Shown here in pieces: positions 7,617 through 16,125 of a DNA stretch of 64,000 bases. Each line of letters opens with the position of its first letter. Positions within the stretch are counted from its first letter, which is position 1. A model generated the notes under the pieces. It was not told the DNA's origin and made no database searches. It saw nothing but the letters and a program-made list of their open reading frames with translations. The position numbers and the translations under genes are program-made. Origin of the DNA: Rhizobiales bacterium PAR1 (GTDB taxonomy: Bacteria > Pseudomonadota > Alphaproteobacteria > Rhizobiales > Beijerinckiaceae); NCBI GenBank assembly GCA_002256205.1, contig NKIW01000001.1, positions 124,001 through 188,000 of the forward strand, in the 5' to 3' direction.

Positions 7617-8390
7617 TTGGCGTTCGGGGACATCAATCGGCGGCGCTTTATCGCACTGGGTTCAGCCGGGAGCCTACTGGCGCTCAGCGGCTGTGCCACC
7701 GTTGGTGTCTATCGCTATAAGGTCGCGCTGGAATTCGATACGCCCTCCGGCCCCAGGAGCGGCTCGACGATCCTGGAAGCGACCTACGGCTGGCACGCCA
7801 CGCTGGAAACCATGTTCGCCGAAGACCTCTCCATTCGGGGTGAGGCCATCTACGTTGACCTCGGTCAGGACAAGTTTGTCGTCGGACTTCTCAATACCGG
7901 GCGTATGCTGCCGCTACCGGCGCTCTACGATGTTCTGGGCTGGGCTCGCCCCGACATTCACGAGCTTCGCGCGCACGAGGGCAAGCTGAGCGGAAAAGCG
8001 CCCCTTCCGGGTGGGGAGGCGCCGATCCTCGTGACGTTCACCGGTCTCGACAATCCGGACACGGTCAAGCTCGTGTATGAGGCCAAGCTCAATCGTCGCC
8101 TGAGCTACTCCTATGACTACGAGCGCAAAATGCAGTCCGTAAAAGAGGTGTCCCGCGGATCGGAGGTGACATCCGACAACTTCGAGGCCGCCTTCGGCAA
8201 AGGCTATGTGTTGCGCGGCGCGACACTCGAAATCGTCGATCCGAAAACGCCCTTCACGACGACGGTTCGCGACAAGCTCGGCGCCATCCTTTCACGCATC
8301 GGGAATGCCGGCCCTGTTGTCGAGGGCGTCATCACCGAAACGAAATCCGTCTTCCGGCTGCAACGGACCCATCTGGTTCAGGGTCTTTAG
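7617..8390 (+). CDS. predicted lipoprotein of unknown function with Tat-like signal
   Basis: I do not recognise a family. The 257-residue product starts at a TTG 8 bp after GGGAGAGG. Its signal has a twin-arginine-like NRRRFIALGSAG run followed by the lipobox LSGC, with the cysteine at residue 26. It is therefore probably exported and lipid-anchored. The rest is a soluble, beta-rich region with no membrane helix or obvious catalytic motif. It lies 42 bp after tpiA in the same direction. A short hairpin with a T-run follows its stop. Confidence 0.65.
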   Translation: MAFGDINRRRFIALGSAGSLLALSGCATVGVYRYKVALEFDTPSGPRSGSTILEATYGWHATLETMFAEDLSIRGEAIYVDLGQDKFVVGLLNTGRMLPLPALYDVLGWARPDIHELRAHEGKLSGKAPLPGGEAPILVTFTGLDNPDTVKLVYEAKLNRRLSYSYDYERKMQSVKEVSRGSEVTSDNFEAAFGKGYVLRGATLEIVDPKTPFTTTVRDKLGAILSRIGNAGPVVEGVITETKSVFRLQRTHLVQGL

Positions 8391-8975: not shown

Positions 8976-10616
<1,641 letters not shown>

Positions 10617-10726: not shown

Positions 10727-11149
10727 ATGTTTCAGGCAGGCAGCGGCGTGATGAGCTCACTCCTCGGAATTCCCTATTTCCTGCTCTACTTCGCGGTTGG
10801 CGCCGCGATCATGGCGTTGTTCATCATCGTCTATATCCGCGTCACGCCGCACGACGAGTTCGCGCTGATCCGTGCCGGGAATTTCACGGCGAGCATGGCG
10901 CTCTCGGGCACGATCATCGGCTTTGCGATTCCGCTCTCGAAGGCGCTGGCGCAGGCCGTGAGCATTCCGGATCTGCTGGTCTGGGCCTTCGCCGCGTTCA
11001 TCGTTCAGCTACTGACCTATGGTATCCTGCGGCTTCTGATGCGTGATTTGACCAGAATGATCGAAACCAACACGGCCGCTGCGGGCACCTTGCTTGCTGC
11101 CGGTTCCATCGCGAGCGGCATGTTGAACGCCGCAGCGATGAGCCTTTGA
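10727..11149 (+). CDS. DUF350 (YjfL-type) inner-membrane protein
   Basis: This 140-residue protein is almost entirely hydrophobic, with about four predicted membrane helices. The first two are near residues 15-37 and 54-75, the others in the second half, around IPDLLVWAFAAFIVQLL and the Ala-rich C-terminus. It matches the single-unit DUF350/YjfL family, whose function is not established. The ATG follows AGGAGGA. It is the first gene of a tight plus-strand cluster with a DUF1190 protein 22 bp downstream and an ATP-grasp enzyme. The same trio (yjfL-yjfM-yjfC) occurs in E. coli, which supports the assignment. Confidence 0.75.
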   Translation: MFQAGSGVMSSLLGIPYFLLYFAVGAAIMALFIIVYIRVTPHDEFALIRAGNFTASMALSGTIIGFAIPLSKALAQAVSIPDLLVWAFAAFIVQLLTYGILRLLMRDLTRMIETNTAAAGTLLAAGSIASGMLNAAAMSL

Positions 11150-11171
11150 GGCCCGGAAACAGGAGCTTCCG

Positions 11172-11858
11172 ATGAAGCGTTCCCATGTCATCGCCCTCGG
11201 TGCTTCCGGCCTGATTGCCGTGGCACTTGTTTCCGGCCATGGCGACCAGCGCATCACCCAGGACGAAGCGCCCAAGGATGCCGCCATCTATGCCAACGCG
11301 CAGGAGTGCATCCGCGCCGGCGTCCTTGCGGCCGATGTCTGCGAGGTGGAATTCCAGAAAGCCGCCGCGACGCATGTCACCGCCGCGCCGAAATTTACCG
11401 ATCAGACGGCCTGCGAGAACCAGTATGGCGCAAGCCAGTGTCGCCCGGCGACACACAACGGTTCCTCGGTTTTCGTGCCCGCCATGGTCGGCTTCATGGT
11501 CGGAAATTACCTGTCGAACCAGCGCAACGCCCAGCCGCTGCTGCCGCCGAACCGGCTTGGTGCCGCACCGTGCCCACCGGGCATCACACCCGCGATGCAG
11601 CCGGGATGCCTGATGCCCCGGCAGGCGAGTACCACCTCCTCAAGCGGCTCCTCTGGTTCGTCCTCAAGCTGGCGCTCCTACTCGACCTCCAACGGTAGTA
11701 CCGTTAGCCGGACCGATGCCGGCAACGGCACGACCAAGGTCGAGTCGGCGGCGACGCACACCAGCGCCCGCAGCACGTCGAGCAGCGCCTCGTCGTCCAC
11801 GGCAACGCGCGGCGGTTTCGGCTCGACCGGCCACGCCACCGCATCCGCGAGCTCGTAA
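11172..11858 (+). CDS. DUF1190 (YgiB/YjfM-type) cysteine-rich exported protein
   Basis: The 228-residue protein has an N-terminal hydrophobic segment (HVIALGASGLIAVALVSG), likely a signal or anchor. The conserved DUF1190 core runs from about 40 to 112, with cysteines at 46, 57, 81 and 90, then a short FVPAMVGFMVG stretch. The last 80 residues are low-complexity Ser/Thr-rich sequence, typical of YgiB tails. The molecular role of the family is unknown. It starts 22 bp after the DUF350 gene and ends 3 bp before the ATP-grasp gene. Two shorter paralogs lie downstream at 13954 and 14365. Confidence 0.8.
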   Translation: MKRSHVIALGASGLIAVALVSGHGDQRITQDEAPKDAAIYANAQECIRAGVLAADVCEVEFQKAAATHVTAAPKFTDQTACENQYGASQCRPATHNGSSVFVPAMVGFMVGNYLSNQRNAQPLLPPNRLGAAPCPPGITPAMQPGCLMPRQASTTSSSGSSGSSSSWRSYSTSNGSTVSRTDAGNGTTKVESAATHTSARSTSSSASSSTATRGGFGSTGHATASASS

Positions 11859-11861
11859 ATC

Positions 11862-13025
11862 ATGCGCAGGATCACGGTTCCCGAGCGCCCCGATTGGCGG
11901 CAGAAGGCCGAGCACGTCGGTTTCACGTTCCATAGCGCCGAAGGGCGCCCGTATTGGGATGAAACCGGCGCTTTCGCCTTTACGCTGCGCGAGATCGAGG
12001 AAGATATCGAGGCGCCGGCCGCGGAACTCGAGGAAATGGCGCTCGAATTCGTCGGCAATGCCTGCCGTGACGAGGAAATCCTGACCCGTCTCGCCATTCC
12101 GCGCGAATTCTGGCCGGAAATCTGGGAAAGCTGGCAGCGCGGAGATCGCAATCTCTATGGCCGCTTCGATTTCGCCTATGACGGGCAGGGGTCTGCCAAG
12201 CTCCTCGAATATAACGCCGATACGCCGACGGCCCTACTCGAAACCGGTGTCTTCCAATGGCTATGGCTTGAGGAAATGATGGCCAACGGGCAATTGCCCA
12301 AGGGCTCGGACCAGTTCAATTCCGTCCACGAAAAGCTGATCGCTGCGTTCCAGAACTTCCGCAATGGGCGGCCCTACGCGCTCCATCTCGCCTGCATCGG
12401 CGAGAGCGAGGAAGATCGCGGCACGGTGGGATATCTGGAGGAATGCGCGCAGCAGGCGGGCGTGAAAACCACCTTCCTTCGGGTCGACGAGATCGGCCTG
12501 ACCAAGGACGGCAAGTTCGTCGACATGCAGAACATGCCCATCGAGCTTCTGTTCAAGCTCTACCCTTGGGAATGGATGATGCGCGAAGACTTCGGCAAGG
12601 CAATTTCCGGCTGCGGCACGCAGTTCATCGAGCCGATCTGGAAAGCGCTGCTCTCCAACAAGGGGCTCTTGCCTTACCTCTGGAAGATGGCGCCGAAGCA
12701 CCCGAACCTCGTTCCGGCGTATTTTGCCAATGAAACCGGTGCAGACCTCGGCCAATCCTATGTCGAAAAGCCGCTGTTCTCGCGGGAGGGTGCGAATATC
12801 CGCCTTTTCGAGCGCGGGCGCGCGGTGGGTGATACCGAGGGACCTTACGGGCAGGAAGGCTTCATCCGCCAACAGAAGATCCCGATCCCGGATTTCGGCT
12901 ATGGCCATGTCATCCTCGGGGCGTGGATGGTCGCGAGCGAACCGGCGGGCATGCTGGTGCGTGAGGACAAATCGCCGATCACCGGCAACCTCGCGCGTTT
13001 CATTCCCCATTGCATAGAGCCGTGA
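11862..13025 (+). CDS. glutathionylspermidine synthase-like ATP-grasp protein (YgiC/YjfC type)
   Basis: The 387-residue protein matches the C-terminal amide-ligase domain of glutathionylspermidine synthase, without the amidase domain. Visible family segments are GRFDFAYDGQGS with LLEYNADTPT (residues 104-130), LFKLYPWEWMMRE, FIEPIWKALLSNKG and VEKPLFSREGANI. Such enzymes use ATP to join a carboxylate to an amine. The substrate of the YgiC/YjfC branch is not settled. It follows the DUF1190 gene by 3 bp. The fixed pairing in other bacteria suggests the cysteine-rich protein is its partner or target, which is inference. Confidence 0.85.
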   Translation: MRRITVPERPDWRQKAEHVGFTFHSAEGRPYWDETGAFAFTLREIEEDIEAPAAELEEMALEFVGNACRDEEILTRLAIPREFWPEIWESWQRGDRNLYGRFDFAYDGQGSAKLLEYNADTPTALLETGVFQWLWLEEMMANGQLPKGSDQFNSVHEKLIAAFQNFRNGRPYALHLACIGESEEDRGTVGYLEECAQQAGVKTTFLRVDEIGLTKDGKFVDMQNMPIELLFKLYPWEWMMREDFGKAISGCGTQFIEPIWKALLSNKGLLPYLWKMAPKHPNLVPAYFANETGADLGQSYVEKPLFSREGANIRLFERGRAVGDTEGPYGQEGFIRQQKIPIPDFGYGHVILGAWMVASEPAGMLVREDKSPITGNLARFIPHCIEP

Positions 13026-13093
13026 TCCGGGGCTGACCTCGTGCTGCTGGAATGCTAGAAACCCGGCACAGGGTTTGTCTAGGCAGAGGTTTC

Positions 13094-13957
13094 ATGGCGC
13101 GTGCACTCGATCATTTTGTTCTCGGCGTTGCCGATCTTGACGCCGCCGGAGCGCGCTTTGCCGCGATGGGCTTCACAGTTGGGGCACGCAACAAGCACCC
13201 CTGGGGCACGGAAAACCGGATCATCCAGTTCGCGGATCAGACCTTTTTCGAACTGATCACGGTAGGTGATGCGAGCGCGATCCCGCCACACGCGCCGCGC
13301 CACTTTTCTTTCGGTGCGTTTGTTCGGGATGCCCTCGCGAAGAAAACCGGCCTTTCCATGCTGGTGCTGAAAAGCGCGGACGCCAAGGCGGATACCGCGG
13401 AATTCGCGCGCCTTGGCATCGGTGATTTCGAGCCTTTTCATTTCGCGCGGAAGGGCAAACGCCCGGATGGCTCCGAGGTCGAAGTCGCCTTCAGCCTCGC
13501 CTTTGCCGCCGAGCCCGCCATGCCGGATTGCGCCTTTTTCGTCTGCCAGCAGCATTTTCCGCAGAATTTCTGGTCCGGTTCGGCGCAACAACACACCAAT
13601 GGCGCAACGGGCGTGCGTCGCGTGACGATCGTTGCCGAGAACCCCTCGGACCATCATATTTTCCTCTCTGCCTTCGTGGGCGAGCGGGCCATGCGGTCGA
13701 CCTCTTTCGGCATCGAGATCGCCGCCGGTCAGGGGATCATTGAGATCATCTCGCCCGAGGGCTTCCGATTCCGTTACGGAACGAAGGCACCGGCCGCACC
13801 GTCCCCTACCTTTGCAGGGCTTGAAATTGCGACCACGAAACTGGAAGGCATGCACGTCAAGGGTTTCGAAACTCATGCAGGGGGCCTCACCGCACCGGCT
13901 GATCATGACTTCGCAACCGCACTTCGGTTCGTTCCTGTTGGGGGAGTTGCAGTATGA
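13094..13957 (+). CDS. VOC superfamily (glyoxalase-like domain) protein
   Basis: The 287-residue protein starts ARALDHFVLGVADLDAA, typical of the first beta-strand of a glyoxalase/VOC module. A second VOC-like half begins around GVRRVTIVAENPSDH. VOC proteins usually bind a metal in a cupped active site and act as lyases, dioxygenases or isomerases; the reaction here is not predictable. The ATG at 13094 follows GAGG. Its stop overlaps the start of the small DUF1190-like gene as ATGA, so these two are translationally coupled. The resemblance to Glyoxalase_3-like proteins is from memory of the fold pattern. Confidence 0.7.
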   Translation: MARALDHFVLGVADLDAAGARFAAMGFTVGARNKHPWGTENRIIQFADQTFFELITVGDASAIPPHAPRHFSFGAFVRDALAKKTGLSMLVLKSADAKADTAEFARLGIGDFEPFHFARKGKRPDGSEVEVAFSLAFAAEPAMPDCAFFVCQQHFPQNFWSGSAQQHTNGATGVRRVTIVAENPSDHHIFLSAFVGERAMRSTSFGIEIAAGQGIIEIISPEGFRFRYGTKAPAAPSPTFAGLEIATTKLEGMHVKGFETHAGGLTAPADHDFATALRFVPVGGVAV

Positions 13958-14304
13958 AGAAGATCATTATCGCGCTTGTGGCGATTGCGGCCGGCTTTCT
14001 CGGCTACAAGATGATGGCGAAGGATGAATGCCCCGGTGGCAAGGCCTTCGAAACCGTTGCCGAATGCCAGGCCTCGGGCCTCACGGCGGACGTCTGCTCG
14101 ACGAGCTTCAAGACCGCGCAGGAAAAGTCGGCCTCGTTCAAGCCGATTGAATCGATGGAACAGTGCCAGCTCCGCTATCCGCATTGCGAGCAGAAGGGGC
14201 CGACCGCTTTCGTTCCCTCGATCCACAAGGTCTGCATCGTGGCTGGCAAGCCGGCAGAGCCGCTTTACGGCACGCTCGGCATGAATATCGCCGGCGGCCA
14301 TTAA
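13954..14304 (+). CDS. small membrane-anchored six-cysteine protein, DUF1190-like (paralog 1)
   Basis: This 116-residue protein has one N-terminal hydrophobic segment (IIIALVAIAAGFLGY) and a short outer domain with cysteines at 26, 38, 48, 71, 78 and 94. The pattern AECQASGLTADVC, then EQCQ, a Pro-x-Cys element and AFVP, matches the core of the YgiB-type protein encoded at 11172. Cysteine spacings are 12, 10, 23, 7 and 16. It lacks the long Ser/Thr tail. The start overlaps the VOC stop. I infer a periplasmic disulfide-bonded domain; no function is known. Confidence 0.65.
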   Translation: MKKIIIALVAIAAGFLGYKMMAKDECPGGKAFETVAECQASGLTADVCSTSFKTAQEKSASFKPIESMEQCQLRYPHCEQKGPTAFVPSIHKVCIVAGKPAEPLYGTLGMNIAGGH

Positions 14305-14364
14305 TCTCCTGATATCGGTTCTCCGGCTCTCGCCGGAGGACCGAATTCACGCTAAAACAAAGCC

Positions 14365-14742
14365 ATGAATCGCGCATCCCGAGGCTTTGTTTTCTTTCTG
14401 ATCGGCGCTGTCGCCGCCGCGATCGGGTGGTTCGCCTGGAACGGCGAATGCCGCGATGGAACCGTTTTCGCCACCGAATCGGGTTGTCGCGAAGCTGCTG
14501 GCTTTAATGCCGCCTTCTGTCGCGAGGCCTTCAAACAGGCGCACGCGAAGGCCACGATGGATTACGCGCCCTTCCGCACCCAGACCGAATGCCTGGAAAA
14601 ATTCCCGGCCTGTGTTCCGCACGGCGTGATCACCGGTGGCTTTGTCCCGACCCCGCGCGGCACTTGCGTTGCCCGTATCGCAGGCGGTATCTCCGGCATT
14701 CCGGTTTACCAGCGCCTCGGCGCGAACCTGTCATCGCGTTGA
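14365..14742 (+). CDS. small membrane-anchored six-cysteine protein, DUF1190-like (paralog 2)
   Basis: This 125-residue protein also has one N-terminal membrane segment (VFFLIGAVAAAIGWFAW), followed by six cysteines at 29, 41, 52, 76, 83 and 101. The spacings 12, 11, 24, 7 and 18 are nearly the same as in the preceding gene, as are the TEC, PAC and GGFVP elements. The two are clearly paralogs, diverged in sequence. It ends 6 bp before kdsA, so it may be cotranscribed with that core gene. The gap from the preceding gene is 60 bp. Confidence 0.6.
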   Translation: MNRASRGFVFFLIGAVAAAIGWFAWNGECRDGTVFATESGCREAAGFNAAFCREAFKQAHAKATMDYAPFRTQTECLEKFPACVPHGVITGGFVPTPRGTCVARIAGGISGIPVYQRLGANLSSR

Positions 14743-14748
14743 GGTCTT

Positions 14749-15576
14749 ATGCCTGAAACCACCGTCAACATCGGCAAGGTTGCCTTTGGCAATCACCTGC
14801 CGTTCTCGCTGATCGCCGGCCCCTGCCAGATGGAAAGTCGCGCCCATGCCTTCGAGATGGCGAGCGCGCTCAAAGAGATCTGCGGGAAGCTCGGCATCGG
14901 GCTTGTCTATAAATCCTCCTTCGATAAGGCGAACCGGACCTCCGGCAAGGCCGCGCGCGGCATCGGTCTCGACAAGGCGCTGGAGGTCTTCGCCGATATC
15001 CGCCGCGATCTCGATCTGCCGGTGATCACCGATGTGCATGAACCCTGGCAGTGCAAGGCTGTGGCAGGCGCGGTCGATGTGTTGCAAATCCCGGCGTTTC
15101 TCTGCCGCCAGACCGACCTTCTGATCGCCGCTGCCGAAACCGGCCTCGCGATCAACGTCAAGAAGGGGCAATTTCTCGCGCCCTGGGACATGAAAAACGT
15201 CATCCAGAAGCTCAGGGATGCCGGTAATGATCGCGGCATGGCTTGTGATCGCGGCACCTCCTTCGGATACAACACGTTGGTGACGGATTTCCGCGGGCTG
15301 CCGATCATGGCCGAGCAATGCCAGTGCCCGGTGATTTTCGATGCGACGCATTCGGTGCAGCAACCGGGCGGGCAGGGCGGTTCCTCCGGCGGTCAGCGCG
15401 AATTCGTGCCGGTTCTGGCACGCGCCGCGCTCGCTGTGGGCTGCGCCGGACTCTTCATCGAGACGCACGAGCACCCGGACAAGGCGCCCTCAGACGGTCC
15501 CAACATGGTGCCACTGAAGGAAATGCCGGCCTTGCTGGCCCGCCTCAAGGCCTTCGATACGCTTGCTAAATCCTGA
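14749..15576 (+). CDS. kdsA: 3-deoxy-8-phosphooctulonate synthase KdsA
   Basis: KdsA condenses phosphoenolpyruvate with arabinose 5-phosphate to make Kdo 8-phosphate for lipopolysaccharide. The 275-residue barrel contains [39 protein letters not shown] and [11 protein letters not shown]. Cys26 in AGPCQMES occupies the position of the metal-binding cysteine of the metal-dependent KdsA class, where E. coli has Asn. So this is probably the metal-dependent form. It is closely preceded by a six-cysteine membrane protein gene. Confidence 0.97.
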
Positions 15577-15585
15577 GGAGTCTCC

Positions 15586-16125
15586 ATGCCCGTCATTCTC
15601 GCGATCCTCGGGGCCATGATGTCTGGCCTCTTCATGTGGGTGGTCTGGGGTAACGGCATGGAGGTCATCAACCACTGGCTCGACCAACGCAGCGCGAGGA
15701 CCAAGACGGAGAAGGATGCCAAAGCCATCGCGGCCGCGCGCGAACGAGCCGCCCGTGCGCCACTCCGGGCCATTGAAGACCCCCGCGAGGCGGTGATGGT
15801 GCTGCTCTCCAAGCTTGCGATGCTGCGCGGCGATATCACGGCGGAGCAGAACGTGGCGCTAAGCCGCATCGCGATGGAACGCCTCGGTCTGCCCGGCAAG
15901 GCCGAGCACCACACCGCGCTGGCGGCCTTTGCGGCCAAATCCGCAGCCAGCGCGGATTCCGTTGTCACGGATCTGATGCCGCTGCTCTGGGCGCAACTCA
16001 GCGCCGAGGAAAAAGCCGATTTCTTTGCGATGCTCGACGAGATCGCGGCGCTTCATGGCGGCCCGACAGAGCCGCAGGATCAGATGATCACCCGCATCCG
16101 CACGCGCCTTGAGGCCAAATTCTGA
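15586..16125 (+). CDS. TerB-like domain membrane-anchored protein of unknown function
   Basis: The 179-residue protein has an N-terminal membrane helix (about 3-24), a basic, charged linker (RSARTKTEKDAKAIAAARERA) and a C-terminal all-helical region from about 65. The region resembles TerB/DjlA-N-type domains (MVLLSKLAMLRGDITAEQ, then LSAEEKADFFAMLDEIA). The resemblance is weak and from pattern only. It lies 10 bp after kdsA in the same direction and converges on the TlpA-like gene. Confidence 0.5.
   Translation: MPVILAILGAMMSGLFMWVVWGNGMEVINHWLDQRSARTKTEKDAKAIAAARERAARAPLRAIEDPREAVMVLLSKLAMLRGDITAEQNVALSRIAMERLGLPGKAEHHTALAAFAAKSAASADSVVTDLMPLLWAQLSAEEKADFFAMLDEIAALHGGPTEPQDQMITRIRTRLEAKF

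Follow-up and report, generated by a model that had tools for sequence, protein, structure and literature searches.

A conserved C-terminal tail of DUF1190 proteins accompanies YgiC/YjfC-type ligases and is found in a pyrG-kdsA interval of a Beijerinckiaceae genome

Introduction

GspS couples spermidine to glutathione at the C-terminal glycine of the peptide, and the Escherichia coli relatives of this enzyme, YgiC and YjfC, are said to accept free peptides in vitro. The latter two are named peptide-spermidine ligases in RefSeq, presumably following Pederick 2023, a reference cited in PMC12568646, and the literature that we searched contains no statement of their natural acceptor. PSP-associated operons unite DUF350, DUF1190 (termed a metal-chelating lipoprotein) and an ATP-grasp peptide ligase (PMC11237479), as does a locus in the 64,000 nt of Rhizobiales bacterium PAR1 (genome size 4.2 Mb) analyzed here, hereafter the window.

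Results and Discussion

Six genes lie at window positions 10727-14742, bordered by genes whose products we take to be CTP synthase (pyrG, 8988..10616) and KDO-8-P synthase (kdsA, 14749..15576). The intergenic gaps are 22, 3, 68, -4, and 60 nt, followed by 6 nt to kdsA, the negative value reflecting a 4-nt overlap (ATGA) between the VOC stop and the mini1 start. An earlier reading made from the sequence alone had described six same-strand genes with short gaps, and both the ORFs and their Pfam families bear this out. The features are as follows.

8988..10616, + strand: pyrG, upstream border of the locus (ORF; landmark in the context counts)
10727..11149, + strand: DUF350 (YjfL-type) small membrane protein with multiple transmembrane segments, 140 aa (PF03994, 3.1e-32)
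11172..11858, + strand: DUF1190 (YgiB/YjfM-type) protein, 228 aa (PF06693, 2.4e-26; alignments)
11808..11855, + strand: C-terminal tail of the DUF1190 protein, RGGFGSTGHATASASS, candidate ligase acceptor (conserved beside the ligase across bacteria)
11862..13025, + strand: GspS-like ATP-grasp ligase of the YgiC/YjfC type, 387 aa (PF03738, 7e-143; 7uk8, 2.5e-127; 7uk6, 7e-118; GspS, 6e-28)
13094..13957, + strand: VOC / Glyoxalase_3 protein, outside the trio (PF13468, 1.6e-30; context in related genomes)
13954..14304, + strand: mini1, N-anchored six-cysteine paralog of the DUF1190 head without the tail, 116 aa (ORF; alignments; profile-profile comparison)
14365..14742, + strand: mini2, N-anchored six-cysteine paralog of the DUF1190 head without the tail, 125 aa (PF06693, 6.6e-5; alignments; AF2; profile-profile comparison)
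14749..15576, + strand: kdsA, downstream border of the locus (ORF; landmark in the context counts)

Promoter and terminator scans of the locus gave no more matches than expected by chance. Outside the block, a predicted lipoprotein (MAFGDINRRRFIALGSAGSLLALSGC...) without a Pfam or NCBIfam match is encoded at 7617-8390, between tpiA and secG, and a TerB-like protein (sub-threshold PF05099) at 15586-16125, 9 nt past kdsA. The TerB-like gene is conserved after kdsA in a number of relatives (L052, L062, L071, L155, and L156). Overall, the gene descriptions of the sequence-only reading stood, whereas its single cysteine pattern, its inclusion of the VOC gene, and its view of the chemistry as unresolved did not, and its interpretation was supported in part.

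Positions 10727..13025 form a complete YjfL-YjfM-YjfC-type trio in the pyrG-VOC-kdsA interval of this Beijerinckiaceae genome, in agreement with the recognition, in that reading, of a DUF350-DUF1190-GspS-like set known from E. coli. The three genes are adjacent on the same strand (co-transcription is putative), the DUF1190 partner carries an RGGFG-type C-terminal tail as in YgiB and YjfM, and the nearest relatives of the ligase are YgiC and YjfC. Full-length matches link the ligase to YgiC (7uk8, 428 bits) and YjfC (7uk6, 397 bits), and weaker ones to trypanothione synthetase and GspS (101 bits for the latter). Residues R101, D103, E116, N118, K267, and K303 align with R316, D318, E330, N332, K498, and K533 of GspS, the catalytic residues of that enzyme. 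Homology to 7uk8 and 7uk6, together with the annotation of the E. coli enzymes, suggests that the ligase forms an amide between a peptide carboxylate and spermidine in an ATP-dependent manner. Given this closeness to peptide-spermidine ligases and the retention of the GspS-fold residues, its chemistry appears to be known in outline and is less open than had been held; for the ligase itself, the word unresolved is outdated, and the proposal that it attaches an amine such as a polyamine gains support.

The DUF1190 protein of the window consists of an N-terminal KRS followed by a hydrophobic anchor, a four-cysteine head (C46, C57, C81, and C90), a Ser-rich linker, and the RGGFG tail; its full-length AF2 model (pLDDT 47) is usable for the head only. 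Nearly all DUF1190 proteins end in (R/S)GGFG, then a stretch of 8 to 30 residues and a small residue at the C-terminus. In a set of 50 representatives sharing <60% identity, GFG was present in 46 (3.7 expected from shuffled tails, with a maximum of 9) and 94% ended in G or S. E. coli YgiB (TRGGFG...RSMGG) and YjfM (SRGGYG...HWGG) also carry the tail, both ending in GG.

To quantify the pairing, loci were chosen by the GSP ligase alone and scored for a GFG-tail ORF ending between -300 and +60 nt from the ligase start, with other genes serving as controls. A gene with an (R/F)GGFG...GG/GS/SS/GGE tail abutted the ligase at 46 of 57 loci, compared with 3 of 151 control sites (p about 1e-31, kinship among loci ignored). 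The 11 exceptions included two near-variants (RGGF, the final G missing) and three loci that carry the tail ORF at another place in the locus; four ligase loci in one family, and a few others, had no adjacent tail gene. At about 19 family/order ligase loci the tail was kept by a neighbor with no detectable DUF1190 head, these being short genes that encode an anchor, a Ser/Gly linker, and the tail, some ending in GGE. Genes of the same anchor-linker-tail build, without a recognizable head, also occur at ligase loci of Saccharibacteria and Verrucomicrobia (L160 and L159). In this sample, the ligase is accompanied more constantly by the tail than by the cysteine head. The literature searched, which covered only some of the key papers, does not mention the tail, and earlier notice is possible.

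Tail proteins ending in Gly-Gly-Glu lie beside the ligase at seven loci (L082, L083, L087, L095, L096, L097, and L210). Pup, a ligation tag, also ends in Gly-Gly-Glu.

For a relative of GspS with a constant neighbor whose disordered tail ends in Gly or Ser, the C-terminus of that tail would be the simplest acid substrate. The DUF1190 protein may accordingly be pictured as two modules: a membrane-anchored, disulfide-type cysteine head, which would face the periplasm and be exchangeable between lineages, and a disordered linker ending in the (R/F)GGFG...(G/S/E) tail. The ligase would join the C-terminal carboxylate of the tail to a polyamine as an amide before the protein is exported, with DUF350 as the putative membrane partner. 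The minis, as duplicated heads, probably work as free head domains, be it as partner, competitor, or sensor, rather than as ligase substrates, a role deduced only from the features that they miss. This scheme, in which the tail is amidated, the head is exchangeable, the minis are head-only nonsubstrates, and VOC is a bystander, is in our judgment evenly poised between right and wrong. We advance more tentatively the general proposition that DUF1190 proteins are widespread, ribosomally made, membrane-anchored acceptors whose tail is polyamine-capped by the adjacent YgiC/YjfC-type ligase, and whose sensory head is also deployed as free six-cysteine minis in some lineages.

The main objection to covalent capping is one of topology. 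With a basic N-terminus inside, followed by one transmembrane segment or a lipobox, the predicted arrangement would place the tail in the periplasm and the ligase in the cytosol, and modification would have to precede export. The tail could serve instead as a sorting or binding signal. It is possible, if on balance doubtful, that the tail serves noncovalently in recognition or sorting, whether by DUF350, by the ligase, or toward the outer membrane, and that the product of the ligase is a soluble metabolite of the peptide-polyamine type, e.g., one resembling glutathionylspermidine. The probable separation of a periplasmic tail from a cytosolic ligase would fit such a role, as would the use of free peptides by YgiC/YjfC in vitro that the title of Pederick 2023 suggests. 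Variation of the C-terminal residues (GG, GS, SS, GGE, and AT) likewise counts against a strict acceptor residue. However, the genetic pairing of tail and ligase is tight even where the head has been lost, and the last residue of almost every tail is small, as expected of a GspS-type acceptor.

The minis, which the earlier reading would examine for adducts, are unlikely to be ligation targets, because the conserved tail that accompanies the ligase is missing from them. Profile-profile comparison related the minis to DUF1190 (97.5%, E 6e-12). While mini2 exceeded the PF06693 cut-off (23.7 bits vs. 22; 6.6e-5), mini1 had no Pfam match above cut-off, PF06693 included, and was linked to DUF1190 by profile-profile comparison only. 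AF2 models of mini2 (pLDDT 71) and, with low confidence, of the DUF1190 head share a strand-helix-helix-helix-strand-strand order, consistent with the suggested structural kinship of the three cysteine-rich proteins. The claim that all three share one cysteine pattern survives for the four DUF1190 cysteines, to which the minis add two further invariant ones; they lack the Ser-rich tail and so depart from the DUF1190 form of a four-cysteine head and a Ser-rich linker with a GFG tail. Judged from these comparisons, the minis are true homologs of the DUF1190 head in a distinct form. A PDB sequence profile retrieved no fold relatives of the mini, and the best Foldseek match (E 1.1) was not meaningful.

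Within the genus of the window, minis occur in one or two copies in variable order and are absent from two of the six members found by genome search, which makes them accessory. They lie between the ligase and kdsA in genomes G136 and G255, and between pyrG and DUF350 in family f18. Minis were present at 11 of 24 pyrG/kdsA-linked trio loci compared with none of 28 trio loci elsewhere, a count that ignores kinship and a label that requires at least 4 to 5 changes on the tree. An unlinked mini with a longer, charged C-terminus is encoded in the trio genome G134 (L161, 7004-7405), far from both the trio and pyrG-kdsA. A weak mini2 match in G066 was rejected as an unrelated lipoprotein. The idea that the minis extend the trio holds insofar as at least four lineages have them at trio loci and every mini-bearing genome found also has the trio, and falls short in the two genus members without them. 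These absences, the shifting copy number and order, and the unlinked copy would suit decaying or neutral DUF1190 duplicates with no function in the system. We nonetheless consider decay improbable, as 11 mini sequences, down to 17% identity to mini1, keep six cysteines and one proline without exception, and the minis recur in separate lineages and were seen in trio genomes only.

Of 120 genomes sampled from the order, 75 contained VOC and 10 the ligase. Of the best 28 VOC loci outside the genus, 26 lay no more than 1.5 kb from pyrG and/or kdsA, and no ligase was present in that range; VOC is also absent from several trio loci among related genomes. VOC was thus rejected as a system member on gene context and is an old resident of an ancestral pyrG-VOC-kdsA neighborhood, a bystander to the trio rather than the extension of it that had been proposed. 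A single pathway of all six genes, with VOC acting on the amine or peptide, is very unlikely and largely refuted by these context data, despite the shared strand, the short gaps, the 4-nt overlap, and a trio-VOC adjacency that the genus shares with other genera of its family.

Among 52 sampled ligase loci, 24 were near pyrG or kdsA and were scattered over the ligase tree, which points to a recurrent or ancestral address and provides no evidence of a functional link to VOC. A single insertion into the pyrG-kdsA interval was discarded because the ligase tree requires several location changes; this tree does not distinguish a single origin followed by losses from repeated relocation. A solitary DUF350 gene lies beside VOC in this interval, with no ligase adjoining, in three genomes of family f25 (L020, L025, and L040), and G226 carries a second DUF350 gene after VOC (L069, 4937-5383).

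The trio is already known from E. coli and from PSP-linked operons (PMC11237479); new here are the tail-ligase pairing across bacteria and the tail-less six-cysteine paralogs. The pairing accounts for the ligase and DUF1190 genes being neighbors and yields a concrete acceptor candidate for YgiC/YjfC, one that E. coli K-12 itself possesses; the tail-less minis serve as a head-only control provided by nature. Should the tail indeed be modified, this would be a new kind of C-terminal modification of bacterial proteins, linked to the cell envelope.

Comparison with Known Systems

Unlike the window locus, the PSP-associated operons described in PMC11237479 have PspA, CesT/Tir, band-7, and potassium-channel partners, and the passage of that paper on these operons mentions neither the six-cysteine minis nor the tail. 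The window locus lacks the PspA-family partner of a PSP envelope-stress operon, and no PspA (PF04012) exceeded the Pfam cut-off in its genome, where the best match was sub-threshold (contig 6, 20807-21286).

The window ligase shares with GspS and trypanothione synthetase the GSP_synth ATP-grasp fold and the Arg/Asp/Glu/Asn/Lys positions of the active site. In contrast to GspS, it has no amidase domain, is about 390 aa long, and scores 428 and 397 bits to YgiC and YjfC compared with 101 bits to GspS.

The closest counterpart is E. coli yjfL-yjfM-yjfC, along with ygiB-ygiC, with which the window shares closely spaced DUF350, DUF1190, and peptide-spermidine ligase genes in identical order, as well as an RGGFG/RGGYG tail that in E. 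coli ends in GG. The yjfIJK neighbors of the E. coli genes (PspA/DUF2170/DUF2491) have no equivalents beside the window trio, which differs further from yjfLMC in having two six-cysteine, head-only paralogs and in its location between pyrG and kdsA.
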